Positions 23,247 to 31,543 of a stretch of 64,000 bases of DNA are shown piece by piece. The translations under genes and the position numbers were made by a program. Source of the DNA: Vulcanisaeta souniana JCM 11219 (lineage in GTDB: Archaea > Thermoproteota > Thermoprotei > Thermoproteales > Thermocladiaceae); assembly GCF_026000775.1 (NCBI RefSeq), contig NZ_AP026830.1, positions 496,001 to 560,000 on the forward strand, given 5' to 3'. Positions within the stretch are counted from its first letter, which is position 1, and each line of letters opens with the position of its first letter. Under the pieces are notes generated by a model, which saw only the letters and a program-made list of their open reading frames with translations, was not told the origin of the DNA and did no database searches.

Positions 23247-23347
23247 AATGGGAATTTACAACTACTCTTTAAGATTAATGCCTAGGTAACCATTACGTGG
23301 GTGCCAATTAGGTAATAAATTAAAAGTATCCTTTGGTTATAATTACT

Positions 23348-24502
23348 ATGTCGAGGGTTGCAATTATTGGGATTGGTTGGTATGGGTTTAGGCCTGCTGT
23401 TGAGGAAGTATCATTTAGAGAAATGATGTTTGAAGCCGCTGCCCGCGCATATGAGGATGCAGGTGGTTTAAATCCAAGGACTGACGTTGATGCCTTCGCC
23501 AGTTGCCAGGAAGACTTCTGGGAGGGAATCGCCATAGCCGATGAATTCGCCCCAGAACCAATTGGTGGCACCTTAAAGCCAGTATTCACGACAACAGGTG
23601 ATGGACTTCAATGCATAGCCAATGCCTACATGATGATTAAGACTGGGCAAATGGACGTGGTAGTAGCTGAATCTCACGCAAAACCAAGTGACATAACCAA
23701 TATTCATGACATAATGCTGTTCGCCATGGACCCATTAACCGTGAGATCAATAAACATGCCGAACTACCACGCATTGGCAGCATTGGAGGCCCAGGTATAC
23801 ATCGTACGGCATAACGTGCCTAAGGAGGCATTAGCCTACGTGGTAACTAAGGACAAGAGGAATGCCCTCCATAATGAGAGGGCTAGTTATGGTGCTAACG
23901 TAACAATTGACGAGGTCTTGGGTTCACCCTACGTGGTATCACCATTAACTAAGTTGGATATTGCACCCTTTGTGGATGCCTCAGTGGTTGTGGTGTTGGC
24001 CAGTGAGGATGTGGCCAGGAAGTACACAGACACGCCAATATGGATAGACGGCATACACTGGGTCACAGAGGAACCCTCACTTGAATTCCATAATTGGGAG
24101 TTCCCAGTTCATGCCATGAGGGCTGCCGAGGCAGCGTATAAAATGGCTGGTATTCAGGACCCGATTAAGGAGCTTCACTTCGCAGAGGTTGACTCAAGGT
24201 ATAGCTTCAAGGAGTTACAATTCATAGAGGCGTTGAAACTTGCCCCAATCGGTGAGGCCCATAAACTGCTCCTTGAGGGTGCCTTTGATAGGGATGGATT
24301 ATTCCCAGTAAATCCAAGTGGTGGTGCGCTTGGTGAGGGTGTCCCGCTCGAGGTTCACGGGCTTGCCAGGTTAGTTGATGCAGTGCTTCAATTAAGGGGC
24401 GAGGCTGGTAGGATGCAGTTGAGTAGGGCTGAGAGGGCTGTTATTCATTCATGGCGTGGCTTACCAACTACGACAAGTGTTGTTGCCGTGTTGAGTAGGT
24501 GA
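23348..24502 (+). CDS. thiolase-fold protein 1, nucleophile not conserved
   Basis: 384 aa from the ATG at 23348, which follows a TAATAAATTAAA box by about 27 nt. The fold is that of archaeal SCP2-type thiolases: GIGWYGFRP start, AAARAYEDAG, and NPSGGALGEGVPLEVHGLARL near the C-terminus. At the nucleophile position the sequence reads TTTGDGLQCI where thiolases have CASG; the Cys lies six residues later. The usual GHPxGATG histidine region reads EGVPLEVHG. It is therefore a degenerate or differently working paralogue. It is followed by a second thiolase in the same orientation; no DUF35 partner is present. Confidence 0.75.
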   Translation: MSRVAIIGIGWYGFRPAVEEVSFREMMFEAAARAYEDAGGLNPRTDVDAFASCQEDFWEGIAIADEFAPEPIGGTLKPVFTTTGDGLQCIANAYMMIKTGQMDVVVAESHAKPSDITNIHDIMLFAMDPLTVRSINMPNYHALAALEAQVYIVRHNVPKEALAYVVTKDKRNALHNERASYGANVTIDEVLGSPYVVSPLTKLDIAPFVDASVVVVLASEDVARKYTDTPIWIDGIHWVTEEPSLEFHNWEFPVHAMRAAEAAYKMAGIQDPIKELHFAEVDSRYSFKELQFIEALKLAPIGEAHKLLLEGAFDRDGLFPVNPSGGALGEGVPLEVHGLARLVDAVLQLRGEAGRMQLSRAERAVIHSWRGLPTTTSVVAVLSR

Positions 24503-24529
24503 TCGGTAATGCTTAAGAACTTAGTTACG

Positions 24530-24538
24530 GGTGATGAT
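24530..24538 (+). promoter_or_regulatory. Shine-Dalgarno site of thiolase-fold protein 2
   Basis: GGTGATGAT lies just before the ATG at 24541 and contains the GGTGAT core, consistent with internal initiation within a two-gene operon. Confidence 0.5.
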
Positions 24539-24540
24539 CT

Positions 24541-25722
24541 ATGAGTAGGAATATACACGTTAAGCACAGGCCCGCGGTAATAGGTGCAGGTCTCACGTTA
24601 TTCAGGAGAAGAATGCTAGAGACTCCAAAGGAGCTAGCCTGGATAGCGGCTAAGCAGGCACTTGACGAGGCGGGTTTAACGCTTAAGGATATTGATTGCG
24701 TGGTCATTGGCTCCGCACCTGACACGTTTGATGGGGTTCACTTTAAGGGTGAGTACTTGGCTGATGGGGCTGGCGGTGTTGGTAAGCCGACAATGAGGGT
24801 GTACGTTGGTGGTGCTACCGGCGTTATGGTCCCAATAGCTGCCTGGTGGCATGTGGCGAGTGGTCACTGTAATACCGTACTGGCGGTTGCTGAGGAGAAA
24901 ATGAGTAGTGCCGATATGCCACATCCGCAGGCCGTGTTTAGGTACATATGGGACCCAGTCACCGAGGTACCGCTTCAGCCGAACTTAATTTGGATATTTG
25001 CAATGGAGATGCACAGGTACATGTATAAGTGCGGCACTAAGAAGGAGGACATAGCCCTCGTCAGCGTAAAGAATAAGCGTAATGCCCTCGACCACCCAGC
25101 AGCTCAGGTGGCAGCAAACATAACTGTGGACGACGTGCTTAAGAGCGAGGTGTTGGTATGGCCTGTTCAATTACTCGACATTTCGCCAGTAAGTGATGGT
25201 GCGGCAGCCATCGTAGTAACCAATGAGAATACTGCCAGGAGACAGACAGACACTCCGGTTTGGATTGACGGTGTTGGTTGGGCGCTGGACACAACATCCT
25301 GGACCAACAGGGACCTGGCGTTCCCCGAGTATGCCAACGTGGCTGCCCAAATGGCCTATAGAATGGCTGGCATTACGAATCCTAGGAGGGAAATTGACGT
25401 TGCCGAGGTATACGACCCATTTGACTATAAGGAACTTCATCACATGGAGGGGCTTGGACTTGCCAAAAAGTGCGAGGCACCGAAACTAACTAAGGAGGGC
25501 ATTACGCAGAGAGACGGCGATTTACCAATAAACCCATCTGGTGGGTTGCTGGGTGTTGGTAATCCAATAGCCGCAGCAGGACTTATGAAGGTATCGGAGA
25601 TCTACTGGCAATTAGCTGGTAAGGCAGGTAAGAGACAGATTAAGAAGCCAGCATACACAGGACTTGCCCATGCCTGGGGCGACCTAATGCAAGCAAGCAC
25701 CGTAGTGATAATGAGGGCTTGA
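24541..25722 (+). CDS. thiolase-fold protein 2, nucleophile not conserved
   Basis: 393 aa. Similar in plan to the preceding protein: AAKQALDEAGLTLKDIDCVV, a nucleophile region VGGATGVMVPIAA with no Cys, AEVYDPFDYKELHHMEGLGL, NPSGGLLGVGNPIAAAGLMK where the catalytic GHPxGATG would be, and GLAHAWGD near the end. The two genes are 38 bp apart and likely form a heteromer. Archaeal thiolases usually act with a DUF35 protein and HMG-CoA synthase; neither is here, so a role in the neighbouring acid-degradation block is possible but unproven. Confidence 0.75.
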   Translation: MSRNIHVKHRPAVIGAGLTLFRRRMLETPKELAWIAAKQALDEAGLTLKDIDCVVIGSAPDTFDGVHFKGEYLADGAGGVGKPTMRVYVGGATGVMVPIAAWWHVASGHCNTVLAVAEEKMSSADMPHPQAVFRYIWDPVTEVPLQPNLIWIFAMEMHRYMYKCGTKKEDIALVSVKNKRNALDHPAAQVAANITVDDVLKSEVLVWPVQLLDISPVSDGAAAIVVTNENTARRQTDTPVWIDGVGWALDTTSWTNRDLAFPEYANVAAQMAYRMAGITNPRREIDVAEVYDPFDYKELHHMEGLGLAKKCEAPKLTKEGITQRDGDLPINPSGGLLGVGNPIAAAGLMKVSEIYWQLAGKAGKRQIKKPAYTGLAHAWGDLMQASTVVIMRA

Positions 25723-25744: not shown

Positions 25745-26653
25745 TCAATATAATAATTTCCTTTGATTCTCCTTCGTAATTATCTCTATCTCTTCCTTAG
25801 TGAGTCCATGTTTGATTATTTTCTCTATGAACTCCACATAACCCTGTGGAGGTGGTTCATGATGTACCTGGCCTAGGTCCGTTGATAATATGTTTCTCTC
25901 AATGCCAGTCTCTCTAATCGCTCTCACAATATCATTAATATCTGCCCTACTTGCAAGTACGGATTCGTAGCACCTCTCGAAGTAAACACCGTAGTTTACT
26001 AGTTCCTTCTGTTGCTCAATGTTGTACCTAGTCGTTGGAAATTCAGGATGTGTAATGATTATCTTCTTAACGCCGCGCTCCACAGCCCTCTTAACTAACT
26101 GTATGCCCTCGTTTGGACTTAGGTGGCCTGTGGCTAATGCCATGTTAAACTCCTTGATTATATCAAGGATCTCATCAATCTCAGGCTTGATCCTACCATC
26201 CTCATCAAATATACTCAAGGCATTACCAAGTAATCCCCTATCATAAAGCTCAAGCTGAGCCTTAGCCCATGCTGGTGGGTTGGGCTTACCTCGCCAATTA
26301 AGCAGTGATGATCTCTCATTTATTGAGTCAACTGTTGGGAACCAAACAATCTTAGCCCCTGATCTACCAGCTATATAAACTATCCTTGGGTTTAAGCCAC
26401 CAACTGAGTTATTAAGCACGATTCCTCCAAAGACATCAATACCATTCACAATCCTCCTAACCAAGTAGGCCCTATCGTAGGTTGGTGAGTAGTGGTTCTT
26501 AATGATAAAACCGCCAAAGCCATAATTCCTATATAGCTTAGCTAAATCAACGTCATCAAGGAGCCTGGGCACAATATCAGGAGCACTATGAACATGTAAA
26601 TCAAAGGCGCCCTTTAGCAAATTAATATCAATCATCATGGTTTTAATTTTCAA
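25745..26653 (-). CDS. DUF6282 family amidohydrolase-like protein
   Basis: 302 aa. Metal-binding style motifs are FDLHVHSAPD near residue 18, IIKNHYSP, a central ATGHLSPNE, ITHPEFP and LSTDLGQVHHEPP, in the order of a TIM-barrel amidohydrolase. Members often occur beside hydantoinase-type genes, as here. The substrate is unknown. It converges with thiolase 2, and lies 16 bp after the MFS gene on the same strand, so those two form an operon. Confidence 0.7.
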   Translation of the reverse strand: MKIKTMMIDINLLKGAFDLHVHSAPDIVPRLLDDVDLAKLYRNYGFGGFIIKNHYSPTYDRAYLVRRIVNGIDVFGGIVLNNSVGGLNPRIVYIAGRSGAKIVWFPTVDSINERSSLLNWRGKPNPPAWAKAQLELYDRGLLGNALSIFDEDGRIKPEIDEILDIIKEFNMALATGHLSPNEGIQLVKRAVERGVKKIIITHPEFPTTRYNIEQQKELVNYGVYFERCYESVLASRADINDIVRAIRETGIERNILSTDLGQVHHEPPPQGYVEFIEKIIKHGLTKEEIEIITKENQRKLLY

Positions 26654-26669
26654 GGAATTCTTGTTTTAA

Positions 26670-27983
26670 TTACTGTTGCTTAAGTATTTCTTCACCCATG
26701 TAAAGCCTTCCCTTGGTTTCACCAACCAGTAAGACCATGGCCAATACCAGCACGCCAGTGCCAATCATGAAATATATTGGTGAGTAAATATTATGGGTTG
26801 CTGCGATTAGGTATGTCATTATTAATGGTGCGGAACCGCCGAGGAATCCAACACCAATTTGATAGGCTAACGATATACCTGAGTATCTGACTTGAGGTGG
26901 GAACATCTCAACCAATACAATGGGTGTTATTGCACCTGCCAAATAATAAACAAATAATCCACCCAATATTATGGCAATAACCACCAGCGTTGGATTACCA
27001 CTTAGGAGCATTAAGAAGTATGGCCACGCGAAGACTATGCCGAATATTGCATCCGCAAGCATTTGTGGTCTTCTACCGAACAAGTCAGAAAGATAACCAA
27101 ATAGTATTGATGCGAATATTCCAATTACTGAGACTATCAGGATTCCCCACTGTGTCACGGCATAAGCAACATAAGGCTTACTGAATTCCTTTGCTATTGA
27201 CGTTGCATAAGCTATTGAGAAGGAGTAGTTCATGTAGTACCAAATACCGTTAAAGACACCAACAAGGAATAGGGCAATCAATATTTGTCTCCAATGCTTT
27301 CTTAGAGCCTCCGATAACGGGCTCTTAACTACCTGGCCCCTACTTTGTAACTGTCTGAACACAGGTGAGTCTTCAACCCTCAATCTAACAATGATACCAA
27401 GTATTGCAATTATGAAGCCTATGCCAAATAATATCCTCCAGCCTATTGCTCGAAAACCAGCAGAGCCCAATGTATACGTCAATAATAATACTAGGCCGCT
27501 TATTAATAATGATGCGATTGATACCGTTGACTGAAGAATACCTGAATAAAGTCCCCTCCTATTTGGATTGATATATTCTGATGTTAGTGAGAACGAACCA
27601 CCCCATTCGCCGCCCAGGGCAACGCCATCCAGGAATCTCATTGCTGCAAGTATTATTGGAGCGACAATGCCTATTTGATAATATGTAGGTAAAAATGCCA
27701 CCACTAGTGATGCTATGCCAGCGAACAATAATGTGAAGTAAAGGGCATAGATCCTACCATGCCTATCACCAATATGGCCAAAAATAATGCCGCCAAGTGG
27801 TCTGCCTAGGAAGCCTATCAAGAATACTAAGTAATACCATAGTAAAGATAATACCGCCACTTTTGATGGGAAGAATAACTCAGCTATAACGGGTGCTAGT
27901 AAGCTATAAAGAAAGAAGTCATACCATTCAAATCCGATACCTACACTTGTACTTATTATCGCAAGCAATCTCATTGAAACCAT
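26670..27983 (-). CDS. MFS transporter, metabolite:H+ symporter (MHS) type
   Basis: 437 aa, 12 predicted membrane segments. The N-terminus GFEWYDFFLYSLLAPVI and the loop GRPLGGIIFGHIGDRHGR are typical of the MHS family, which takes up carboxylates and related metabolites. A second copy of the loop motif (GYLSDLFGRRPQ) follows the sixth segment. It shares an operon with the DUF6282 gene and is divergent from the maleate-isomerase-like gene, suggesting uptake of the substrate of this block. Confidence 0.85.
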   Translation of the reverse strand: MVSMRLLAIISTSVGIGFEWYDFFLYSLLAPVIAELFFPSKVAVLSLLWYYLVFLIGFLGRPLGGIIFGHIGDRHGRIYALYFTLLFAGIASLVVAFLPTYYQIGIVAPIILAAMRFLDGVALGGEWGGSFSLTSEYINPNRRGLYSGILQSTVSIASLLISGLVLLLTYTLGSAGFRAIGWRILFGIGFIIAILGIIVRLRVEDSPVFRQLQSRGQVVKSPLSEALRKHWRQILIALFLVGVFNGIWYYMNYSFSIAYATSIAKEFSKPYVAYAVTQWGILIVSVIGIFASILFGYLSDLFGRRPQMLADAIFGIVFAWPYFLMLLSGNPTLVVIAIILGGLFVYYLAGAITPIVLVEMFPPQVRYSGISLAYQIGVGFLGGSAPLIMTYLIAATHNIYSPIYFMIGTGVLVLAMVLLVGETKGRLYMGEEILKQQ

Positions 27984-28091
27984 ATTTAATCAGAAATAAT
28001 TATATAGTTATATTTTTAAGTTTTACTTTATCAAGCTTTATATAAATTATAAAGATGAAAGTTTAAATAATTCATTATTAAATATAAAGTA

Positions 28092-28817
28092 ATGACTTGG
28101 TTTAAGATCGGTGTAATAATTCCATCGTCAAATACTACAGTCGAGAGGGAATTTAATCGTGCAATTAGGGAACCAGAGGCCACTATACATAGCTCTAGGA
28201 TCATGCTTAGAGAGGTCACTTTAAAAGGTCTTGAAGAAATGGAAAGAGAAACAGAGAGGGCGGCCTTGGAGTTAAGTACAATTAGTCCTGATATTATTGC
28301 TTATGCATGCACAACAGGCAGTCTATTCAAGGGTCCTAATCACCATGTTGAAATTAAGGAAAGAATTGAACGCTTAACTAAGGTTAAGGCTGTAGCCACA
28401 GCAGGCGCGGTTGTTGATGCTATTAAGAAGCTGAATGCCAGTAAGGTATTAGTTGTCACGCCATACATAGATGAGTTAAATACTAAGGAGAAGGAGTTTC
28501 TTGAGGCACATGGGTTTAAAGTCGTTAATATACGTGGACTCGGTATTGTAGATAACACGGTAATTGGTTCACTAGACCCAAGAACTGCTTATGAAACCGC
28601 CTTAAATGCTTATAACCAATCTGGTCCGGACTTTGACGTATTATTCATATCATGCACTAACTGGAGAACCTTCGAGGTTATTGGTGCTATTGAAAGACGA
28701 ATAAATAAACCCGTAGTAAGTAGTAATAGCGCAACATTATGGTCGGTCTTAAAGGAACTAGGGTTACGTGTAAAGCTAAACTATGATTTAGGAATGTTAT
28801 TCAGTGATATTCAATAA
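28092..28817 (+). CDS. maleate isomerase / Asp-Glu racemase superfamily enzyme
   Basis: 241 aa. The start IGVIIPSSNTTVEREF is typical of maleate cis-trans isomerases and arylmalonate decarboxylases. Two catalytic cysteines are visible: YACTTGSLF (about residue 77) and ISCTNWRTF (about 194). Hydantoin and aspartate racemases share the fold, so with HyuA next door a hydantoin racemase is an alternative. It ends inside the MBL gene on the opposite strand (7-bp overlap of the two 3' ends). Confidence 0.75.
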   Translation: MTWFKIGVIIPSSNTTVEREFNRAIREPEATIHSSRIMLREVTLKGLEEMERETERAALELSTISPDIIAYACTTGSLFKGPNHHVEIKERIERLTKVKAVATAGAVVDAIKKLNASKVLVVTPYIDELNTKEKEFLEAHGFKVVNIRGLGIVDNTVIGSLDPRTAYETALNAYNQSGPDFDVLFISCTNWRTFEVIGAIERRINKPVVSSNSATLWSVLKELGLRVKLNYDLGMLFSDIQ

Positions 28818-29518
28818 GCATTTTCATCAATAATAGTTAATTTTATACGACCCCTTAAGGTTAATTGAAAATTAAAAGGTTCGCTTCCCAGTGGCCTTAA
28901 TGAGTTGCCATCAACAATAAAGGGTGCATCATGTCCTGGAACCACCGCCTTAGCAATACTTAATGCCTTATTAATGCTTTCATTAGCCAGTTCATTACTA
29001 TAATAAGTAAACGTCGCTTTTTTACTTAACGCCTCAGATACATACTTAATAGCATCGCCTGCAAGTAATGTCTTATCCTCAAGTAAAAGTCCCATGGTTC
29101 CACCCGTATGCCCAGGTAATAATATGAACCTTGCGCCAAGAAGCCCATTGTTATTATCAACAATAGTTAATCTATCCCTGATTAGATTAATTAAGTATGT
29201 TGCTAAGTATGGATCGCTAGGATTAGACTGCGCGTAATCTATTTCACTTCTTGAAATAATAATTTTCGCCTTAGGGAATAGCAACGCATTAATTGCGTGA
29301 TCAAAATGCAGATGAGACAGTACGACATAGTCGATGTCATTAACGTTCAATCCCCTATTATGTAGCGCAGAAAGTAATGGTTCTCTATTCCCGTAATGCC
29401 CAGGATCAAAGACCATGTACTTATCATCGATTTTTATTAGAATAACATTGCAAAGACCTAAAAATCCTAAGTTTGTGATTAGCGGGATGCCTGGTAGCAA
29501 TATTTCCCATCTATGCAT
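28811..29518 (-). CDS. MBL-fold metallo-hydrolase
   Basis: 235 aa. Metal motif [10 protein letters not shown] (about 68-77), then [12 protein letters not shown] and [10 protein letters not shown], as in metallo-beta-lactamase-fold lactonases and thioesterases. A final PGHDAPFI supplies the last His. A lactonase or acyl hydrolase role fits the neighbourhood. Its start is 28 nt from the symmetric TATA box at 29541-29550, which it shares with hyuA. Confidence 0.8.
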
Positions 29519-29540
29519 ATCAATTTAATTCGAGGACAAA

Positions 29541-29550
29541 GATTTAAATC
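29541..29550. promoter_or_regulatory. palindromic TATA box shared by MBL hydrolase and hyuA
   Basis: GATTTAAATC is a perfect 10-bp palindrome. Its centre is about 28 nt from the MBL start (29518, minus) and 33 nt from the hyuA ATG (29579, plus). It could direct transcription both ways. Confidence 0.45.
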
Positions 29551-29578
29551 TAATGTGTTAATCTCTTTCGGATTATTC

Positions 29579-31543
29579 ATGACAATAGTTGCTGTTGATG
29601 TTGGTGGTACCTTTACGGATTTCGTGGTACTCAGGGATGATAGTACCATATACTCACTCAAGGTACTTAGTACCCCGAGGAGTCCTGAGGTTGCCGTGCT
29701 TGACGGCTTAAGGAGGATTAAGGAGCCAATCTCCGAGGTTCTTCACGCGACAACTATCGGCACTAATACATTGCTTGGTCAAGTTGGTCTCGAGATACCA
29801 AGAGTTGCTTTGTTTACTACGGTAGGTTTTAGGGACGTTATTGAAATTGGGCGTCAAAATAGGCCTAGGCTTTATGACTTGTTCTTCGATAAGCCGAGGT
29901 CCCTGGTGCCAAGGGAACTTAGATTTGAGGTTAATGAGAGGATTTTGGTTGATGGTACTGCGGCTAAGCAAATTGATCCCAGGGAGATTGAGGAGTACGC
30001 GGTTAGGGCTAAGTCGATGGGTGTTATCAGTGTTGCTGTTTCGTACCTTCATTCATACATTAACCCAGTTAATGAGGAGGCCACGGGTGACGTGCTTAGG
30101 AAGTACTTTAAGTACGTGAGCCTATCAAGCAAAGTTGCCCCTGAGCCTAGGGAGTATGAGAGGGCCTCAACCACGGTAGTCAACGCAGTTCTTATGCCAA
30201 TAGTCAGTGAGTACGTAGCTAGGTTCTCCGAGGGGCTTAAGGAGCTTGGTATTGGCAGGTTTTACATAATGTCAAGCGCAGGTGGTCTTATAGATGCTAA
30301 TGAAGCCATGGAAAGACCTGTTCAATTAATTGAGTCCGGGCCCGCCGCTGGTGCTGTGGCCGCTGCTGAGTTTTCCAAGTTAATTGGTGTTGAGAACGTG
30401 ATCGGCTTTGACATGGGTGGTACCACGGCTAAGGCATCCTCAATACTCAAGCATGAGCCTGAGGTCACAACGGAGTATGAAGTTGGTGGTGAAGTTCATC
30501 ACGGCAGGTTGGTCAAGGGCAGTGGGTATCCAGTTAGGTTCCCATTTATTGATCTTGCCGAGGTCTCGAGTGGTGGTGGGACGATTATTTGGCGTGATGA
30601 GGCCGGGGCACTCAGGGTAGGACCGATCAGTGCTGGTGCAGATCCGGGGCCGATGTGTTATGGCAGGGGTGGTAGGGAACCAACATTGACTGATGCTAAT
30701 GTGGCCCTTGGCAGGATCGGTGAGTATCTACTTGGTGGCGAGATGAGGCTTGATAGGGATGCCGCGATTAAGGGCCTGTCGAGGCTTGGTGATCCCATTA
30801 ACGCGGCTCTTGAGGCCGTTAGACTTGCAAACATTGAGATGGCTAGGGCGGTTAGGCTTGTGACTGTCGAGAGGGGTCTTGACCCAAGGGAATTCGCACT
30901 AATGGCTTTTGGTGGTGCTGGTCCTCAATTCGCGCCCTACATAGCTGAGGAGCTGGGCATAAATTCAGTGATTATACCGCCAGAGCCCGGCGCCTTTAGC
31001 GCCCTCGGACTGTTAATGGCTGATGAAAAGTTTGAGGCTAGGATTTCATTCCCAAAGGACCTCGAGGATGGGTTTAGGAGACTTGAGGATGAGTTGCTTA
31101 GTAGGTTGGGTAGGGTTGATTACTTCCTTAGGTATGCCGATGTTAGGTATGTTGGCCAGGGTTGGGAGTTAACAATACCCGTTGGGAGACCAGCAAGTGT
31201 AGATGATATTGAGAGGGCTTTCAATGATAGGCATCATGCAACGTATGGGTTTAAGTTAAATAAGCCCATTGAGGTTGTGACGATTAGGGTATTCGCGGTA
31301 ATAACGAGGGTGAAGCCAAGGTTTAGGTCGCCAAAGGCTGAGGGCGAGGCCAAACCAAGGAGTTTCAGGAGGGTTTATTTCGATGATTGGGTTGAGACGC
31401 CAATTTACTGGCGTGATGACATGCCAATTACTCAAGTGATTGAGGGACCGGCGATAATCGAGGAGTACGGATCAACCATAGTGGTACCACCAAGGTGGAG
31501 GGTCATGATTAGTGGGCATGGTGAAGTAAGGATGATGCACTAA
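29579..31543 (+). CDS. hyuA: hydantoinase/oxoprolinase family protein, subunit A
   Basis: 654 aa. The ATPase-type motifs are [14 protein letters not shown] at the N-terminus, [43 protein letters not shown] and [12 protein letters not shown], diagnostic for HyuA / acetophenone carboxylase-type subunits. These use ATP to activate a cyclic amide or ketone, normally with a HyuB subunit. No HyuB follows; the next 370 bp are empty. Partners nearby are a racemase-family enzyme, an MHS transporter and a DUF6282 hydrolase. Substrate unknown. Confidence 0.85.

Follow-up and report, generated by a model that had tools for sequence, protein, structure and literature searches.

The HyuA protein encoded in a 64,000-nucleotide window of the Vulcanisaeta souniana chromosome (the whole stretch analysed, positions 496001-560000 of 2.43 Mb) is very probably one of the two subunits of an ordinary ATP-dependent lactam or cyclic-amide hydrolase that works as a split pair, the gene for the other subunit, HyuB, lying about 300 kb away. 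hyuA belongs to a block of five contiguous open reading frames (ORFs; window positions 25745-31543) encoding a DUF6282 protein, a metabolite/H+ symporter of the major facilitator superfamily (MFS; hereafter MHS), a protein of family PF17645 (hereafter AMD), a metallo-beta-lactamase-fold protein (MBL) and HyuA, with families assigned by Pfam and NCBIfam profile scans. A first-pass annotation of this DNA had described these genes as contiguous and had seen no adjacent hyuB, both of which hold, and had suggested that HyuA might act with a new partner such as the MBL or DUF6282 protein. We reject that suggestion: HyuB is present on the same chromosome, is conserved and carries the catalytic residues, and it lies beside HyuA in relatives with the same block, so that a new HyuA partner is not needed.

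The distant HyuB partner

A profile search returned no match to Hydantoinase_B (PF02538) inside the window. The sole match in the genome is found at 828181-829725 (646.4 bits), without internal stops, and represents a single-copy, intact 524-aa ORF some 300 kb from HyuA (828 kb vs 526 kb); the wider search proposed in the first-pass annotation does, then, find a hyuB. HyuA itself (window positions 29579-31543, plus strand), the ATP-binding subunit of an ATP-dependent lactamase/hydantoinase/oxoprolinase, has its core domain (PF01968, 337.8 bits) as well as its N- and C-terminal ones (PF05378, PF19278) above the Pfam cut-offs, and carries both aspartates of the DxGGT phosphate site, D7 and D278. 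Its best matches among solved structures are the N-methylhydantoinase 7hk5 (1e-110), likewise the best solved match of HyuB, and chain A of 6yra (7.6e-97), an entry that we take, from its length and name, to be the CapAB caprolactamase. When HyuB is aligned to the caprolactamase, residues D42, H103, D106 and H128 match the metal tetrad D41, H99, D102 and H124 of CapB. These ligands are essential according to the mutants described in the available part of the caprolactamase article (PMC8453981).

Judged by these residues, HyuB looks catalytically complete, and ring opening by HyuAB can be predicted. HyuA and HyuB would assemble in trans from their distant genes; HyuA would phosphorylate, and thereby activate, the cyclic amide, whose ring the metal site of HyuB would then open. 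Only two HyuA-core (PF01968) matches were detected in the genome: one is the window gene, the other a short, low-scoring match (78.5 bits) near 114 kb (L003:1075-3560); the latter, a 522-aa HyuA-like protein, overlaps a 306-aa ORF that by eye is presumably DUF917-like.

Co-occurrence and separation of HyuA and HyuB

We surveyed 45 genomes of the order (numbered with G, the V. souniana genome being G000), with adjacency counts taken from our reading of the match tables. HyuA was detected in 38 genomes and HyuB in 42, with neither in the remaining three. All 38 HyuA genomes also carry HyuB and none has HyuA alone, while HyuB occurs alone in four, namely the drafts G011, G021 and G023, and G032, where the match is partial and covers model positions 310-519 only. 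The two genes, which usually though not necessarily stand side by side in this enzyme family, are adjacent in 27 of the 38 genomes, split in nine (G000, G003, G004 and G015-G020), and unclear or rearranged in two (G037, in which they lie ~1.4 kb apart on opposite strands, and G022, too fragmented to judge). The split is certain in the single-contig genomes G000, G015 and G018; the other six are drafts with the two genes on different contigs, for three of which (G003, G004, G016) the surroundings of both genes were read and show other genes beside each, and for three (G017, G019, G020) the HyuA side alone was read and shows no HyuB.

Gene order suggests how this state may have arisen. G025 has the order HyuA-HyuB-ThiM, and ThiM is still found some 4 kb downstream of HyuA in the window, which points to HyuB having moved out. 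A member of another genus, G002, carries, in this order, genes of 530 aa and 426 aa (the latter RsmB-like), HyuB, HyuA, MBL, AMD, MHS, DUF6282 and, farther on, HisG. In G003, HyuA has stayed between the 530/424 pair and HisG, and HyuB lies at another site; in G004, HyuA adjoins HisG and HyuB adjoins the 530/426 pair. Because the flanks differ in this way between split genomes, at least two separations within the order are suggested. In G005, from another genus, the order is MBL fragment-HyuA-HyuB-nucleotidyltransferase, and this nucleotidyltransferase also flanks the distant HyuB of Vulcanisaeta; the arrangement joins both flanks, which indicates that the two present-day Vulcanisaeta neighbourhoods were once one. 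The HyuA tree, however, places G005 among the split genomes, so that its arrangement may instead be a re-joined one. On gene order, an ancestral hyuA-hyuB pair thus appears to have come apart in this Vulcanisaeta lineage.

Pairwise identities of HyuA and HyuB correlate across 14 genomes (r=0.98), and this agreement of distances gives no support to the idea that HyuB is a foreign or unrelated copy. Ratios of non-synonymous to synonymous substitution rates between G000 and G015 (0.077 for HyuA, 0.094 for HyuB) denote purifying selection and imply that both are maintained. The two trees differ in detail, G003 and G004 pairing in the HyuB tree and not in the HyuA tree. In both trees, G005 falls among Vulcanisaeta and G025, a Vulcanisaeta, groups with G002, so that lateral transfer or gene conversion is likely. 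Both subunits seem to have travelled together between genera (loci L054 and L055; genomes G005 and G025). Separately, the synonymous divergence of HyuB between G000 and G015 is 0.26 (L047:9176-10750 vs L063:7265-8839), against 0.65-1.64 for HyuA and the block genes, and the region upstream of HyuB is nearly identical in the two genomes; a recent exchange of HyuB between them is possible.

Conservation of the gene neighbourhood

Within the order, PF17645 is found in 4 of the 45 genomes and DUF6282 in 6, in every case no more than a few kb from HyuA; across the phylum, 43 of 398 genomes have PF17645 matches. We fetched 20 AMD loci from outside the family of the window genome and sought their neighbours within the fetched stretches by tblastn, which placed both HyuA and HyuB near AMD in six archaeal loci (L159, L160, L162, L170, L175, L176). 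The block recurs with HyuB directly beside HyuA in another family (L170, genome G397; HyuB-HyuA-MHS-AMD-MBL, at 50-68% identity to the window proteins) and in another genus (L051, genome G002; transporter, isomerase, MBL and HyuA genes beside HyuB), while shorter versions were seen in L171, a 3.8-kb contig with MBL-AMD-MHS, and in L165 (MHS-AMD). Since the set MHS-AMD-MBL-HyuA is found again in a second genus and a second family, the arrangement is not due to chance. The first-pass view of an uptake, isomerase or racemase and ATP-dependent ring-opening set is therefore upheld as a conserved neighbourhood and given up as one in need of a new partner.

DUF6282 behaves differently, being seen near HyuA only in the family of the window genome. 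In tblastn searches of the fetched flanks, 42 bacterial and 16 other archaeal DUF6282 loci showed no HyuA, HyuB, AMD or MBL nearby, several of the bacterial loci ending at contig ends; tblastn here replaced an ORF-based pass that had missed DUF6282 in 12 of the 42. This marks DUF6282 as a local addition and MHS-AMD-MBL-HyuAB as the wider set, and we discarded the bacterial context (0/42 loci with any of the four) as a guide to the role of DUF6282 beside HyuA. In that context, an RraA-like aldolase lies within three genes of DUF6282 in 17 of 42 loci and a PIG-L family gene in 13, often with GntR or LysR regulators (L084, L086, L087, L099, L107 and others), and one archaeal locus (L185:4621-9854) unites MHS, PIG-L, RraA, DUF6282 and a 2-hydroxyacid dehydrogenase. 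This association looks like a hydroxy- or keto-acid pathway.

Layout of the block and its accessory proteins

Strands alternate along the block. DUF6282 (25745-26653, minus strand) and MHS (26670-27983, minus strand) point leftward and are probably co-transcribed given the 16-bp gap between them; AMD (28092-28817, plus strand) is divergent from MHS, and MBL (28811-29518, minus strand) converges on AMD and points away from HyuA. The probable start of HyuA is 29579, although its ORF opens at 29513, because its orthologues begin at an ATG equivalent to codon 23; with this start, ~60 bp separate HyuA from MBL. This divergent intergenic region (29519-29578) holds a TATA-like stretch, ATTTAAAT, and the one between MHS and AMD (27984-28091) holds GAAAG-TTTAAATA, resembling a transcription factor B recognition element and TATA box; each may act as a promoter. 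A thiolase-domain pair (PRK06066 and PRK06065 type; window positions 23333-25722) directly precedes the block, and the same pair adjoins HyuA in two genomes that lack the block, G017 and G020.

AMD belongs to the family of arylmalonate decarboxylase, EutA and maleate isomerase (PF17645, 113 bits), and its best solved matches are the maleate isomerases 2xec (5.8e-32) and 4fq7 (9.8e-31), with which both of its cysteines, C73 and C188, align. N14, C73, Y125 and C188 are complete in 23 of 24 archaeal sequences, the remaining one differing at N14 only. Arylmalonate decarboxylase has a single catalytic cysteine (C188), with glycine at position 74, as given in the available part of PMC12576825. Because AMD keeps two cysteines, as maleate cis-trans isomerases do in this fold, it is predicted to be an isomerase or racemase rather than a decarboxylase; assignment as arylmalonate decarboxylase (NF052327, 107.1 of 225) or as the ectoine-utilisation protein EutA (TIGR02990, 113.3 of 318 bits) also fell below the respective cut-offs. 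A further match of AMD, at 47.6 bits, is to PF01177, the family of Asp/Glu/hydantoin racemases.

MBL (PF00753, Lactamase_B, 71.2 bits) is closest to the acyl-homoserine lactone (AHL) lactonase AiiA, with AiiA chains at ~41 bits and the curated AiiA model at 56.4 of 375 bits, under its cut-off. Its ligand motifs HxHxDH, GHT, GDA and GHD are complete in all six orthologues scanned, and the protein weakly resembles AHL lactonases. The DUF6282 protein (302 aa; PF19799, 228.6 bits) is predicted to form an amidohydrolase-superfamily, metal-dependent hydrolase barrel with His/Asp metal ligands. Its sequence matched no solved structure and the fold was recovered by structure comparison only, with an AlphaFold2 model (predicted local distance difference test 94.6) that matches dipeptidases, phosphotriesterase-like lactonases and dihydroorotases (Z <=20.6, root-mean-square deviation 3.2, 260 aligned residues). 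H54, H177, H202 and D259 are invariant, and D18 and H22 near-invariant, in the window protein and 31 of 43 loci. MHS is an MFS member (PF00083/PF07690) whose best NCBIfam match, the metabolite/H+ symporter model TIGR00883, scores below cut-off (300.6 of 443.45 bits).

Candidate substrates and rival explanations

We tentatively favour 5-oxoproline (pyroglutamate) as the most economical HyuAB substrate, in the sense of a candidate rather than a probable answer. It is the simplest choice because HyuAB is widespread, PxpA (PF03746) occurs in 0 of the 45 genomes of the order, no HyuC-type carbamoylase exceeds the cut-off in the whole genome (TIGR01879, best 37.8 of 204 bits), and pyroglutamate arises spontaneously and inhibits thermoacidophilic archaea, as stated in the available part of PMC13274462. 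Of the seven M20 genes, the three that were scanned are DapE/ArgE- or peptidase-like. MHS would take up D- and L-5-oxoproline by H+ symport, AMD would interconvert the two enantiomers as a racemase, and HyuAB would open the ring to give glutamate. MHS, AMD and the lactonase-like MBL would form a conserved set of accessory genes that supplies the enzyme with substrate; DUF6282 would have joined this set only in the family of the window genome. In its full form, which we regard as speculative and doubtful, MHS-AMD-MBL-HyuAB would constitute an archaeal pathway not described before, serving in hot acidic springs to take up and break down 5-oxoproline in both enantiomeric forms, or some similar cyclic amide, so that glutamate is gained from a compound that inhibits growth; the enzyme subunits would have been separated repeatedly on the chromosome in this lineage and would still work in trans. 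Our searches of the open-access literature found nothing on DUF6282, on Vulcanisaeta and hydantoinase, on 5-oxoproline, archaea and hydantoinase, or on maleate isomerase, hydantoinase and gene cluster.

Several observations weigh against this picture. HyuA and HyuB stay far below the caprolactamase equivalog cut-offs (NF050156/NF050157; 389.9 and 239, respectively, of 1000), and homology therefore does not reveal the substrate. The nearest solved relatives of AMD are maleate isomerases, not hydantoin or amino-acid racemases, and neither MBL nor DUF6282 receives a role in the 5-oxoproline pathway or a clear step in any other version. Most genomes of the order have HyuAB but few have AMD, hence the core function of HyuAB need not equal that of the block. 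Finally, the first-pass annotation had named adjacent hyuAB in relatives, together with shared regulation of a distant hyuB, as evidence against a new partner; the adjacency is found, whereas regions upstream of hyuA, hyuB and MHS/AMD, compared by eye only in several genomes, share no motif beyond TATA-like stretches.

The kinship of AMD would suit a different route, in which MHS imports a cyclic imide or unsaturated amide, HyuAB (or MBL or DUF6282) opens it to a maleamate- or maleate-type acid, and AMD, as a true maleate cis-trans isomerase, leads on to fumarate. MHS carriers include carboxylate symporters, and MBL and DUF6282 would supply extra hydrolases, in addition to the two aligned cysteines of AMD; however, no maleamate-specific amidase was identified nearby, PF17645 spans several reactions, and AMD loci beside HyuAB include branched-chain-type ATP-binding cassette transporter genes (L159) that fit an amide or amino-acid-like substrate equally well. 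We hold this route to be possible, without leaning on it. Hydantoin utilisation, with AMD racemising 5-substituted hydantoins, HyuAB yielding N-carbamoyl amino acids and a carbamoylase finishing the pathway, draws on 7hk5 as best solved match of both subunits, on the PF01177 match of AMD and on racemase plus HyuAB being a known set; the sub-threshold carbamoylase score makes it quite unlikely.

Gene co-location bears on the two other alternatives. That HyuA works with MBL or DUF6282 as a new partner might be argued from the divergent MBL gene at ~60 bp and from DUF6282 lying near HyuA in 6/6 matching genomes of the order, but beyond the intact HyuB, found in every HyuA genome of the order, both subunits occur in G017, G019 and G020, which carry neither AMD nor DUF6282, and the 42 bacterial and 16 archaeal DUF6282 loci from elsewhere show no HyuA nearby, which leaves this idea highly improbable. 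The genes may also stand together merely through rearrangement, with HyuA functionally unlinked to the block, as the contrast between widespread HyuAB and rare AMD and DUF6282, and the direct contact of HyuA with the thiolase pair in G017 and G020, would allow; the presence of HyuAB close to AMD in six of the 20 archaeal loci from outside the family, together with the conserved set in G397, argues otherwise, and we consider such a grouping unlikely.

Taken together, the split HyuAB pair removes the gap claimed for this block, as the partner of HyuA lies elsewhere on the chromosome. What we describe is a modest catabolic gene cluster of an archaeon, together with a case of subunit genes that have come apart: genes for the two parts of a single enzyme can lie far from each other on an archaeal chromosome, and in this order they have apparently been parted more than once, so that an operon lacking its partner gene is weak evidence for a new mechanism. 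MHS-AMD-MBL-HyuAB is also a candidate, open to testing, for a set that salvages cyclic amides or pyroglutamate in thermoacidophiles, whose growth pyroglutamate reportedly inhibits.

Comparison with known systems

The functional layout proposed here, in which a secondary transporter accompanies an ATP-dependent lactam hydrolase, is that of PxpTABC in Corynebacterium glutamicum, as presented in the available part of PMC13274462. PxpABC is, however, a different enzyme from HyuAB, its PxpA component being the one absent from the whole order. AMD shares two aligned cysteines with the maleate cis-trans isomerases 2xec and 4fq7. The usual context of maleate isomerase is a nicotinate-type pathway, whereas in Vulcanisaeta it is HyuAB. 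The hydantoin cluster of Pseudomonas sp. NS671, reportedly ordered hyuA-hyuB-hyuC-hyuE, likewise combines a racemase-family enzyme with HyuAB; Vulcanisaeta differs in having no HyuC over the cut-off, in a racemase-like enzyme that falls in PF17645 with the maleate isomerases, and in its additional MHS and MBL. CapAB caprolactamase of Pseudomonas jessenii, from what the available part of PMC8453981 describes, is similarly built from two subunits, with a phosphate-site aspartate in the A subunit and an Asp-His-Asp-His metal tetrad in the B subunit, while the Vulcanisaeta proteins score far below its equivalog cut-offs and are encoded ~300 kb apart. In N-methylhydantoinase 7hk5, by contrast, the A and B halves, matched by HyuA and HyuB respectively, are united in one 1288-residue chain, where Vulcanisaeta has two distant genes.

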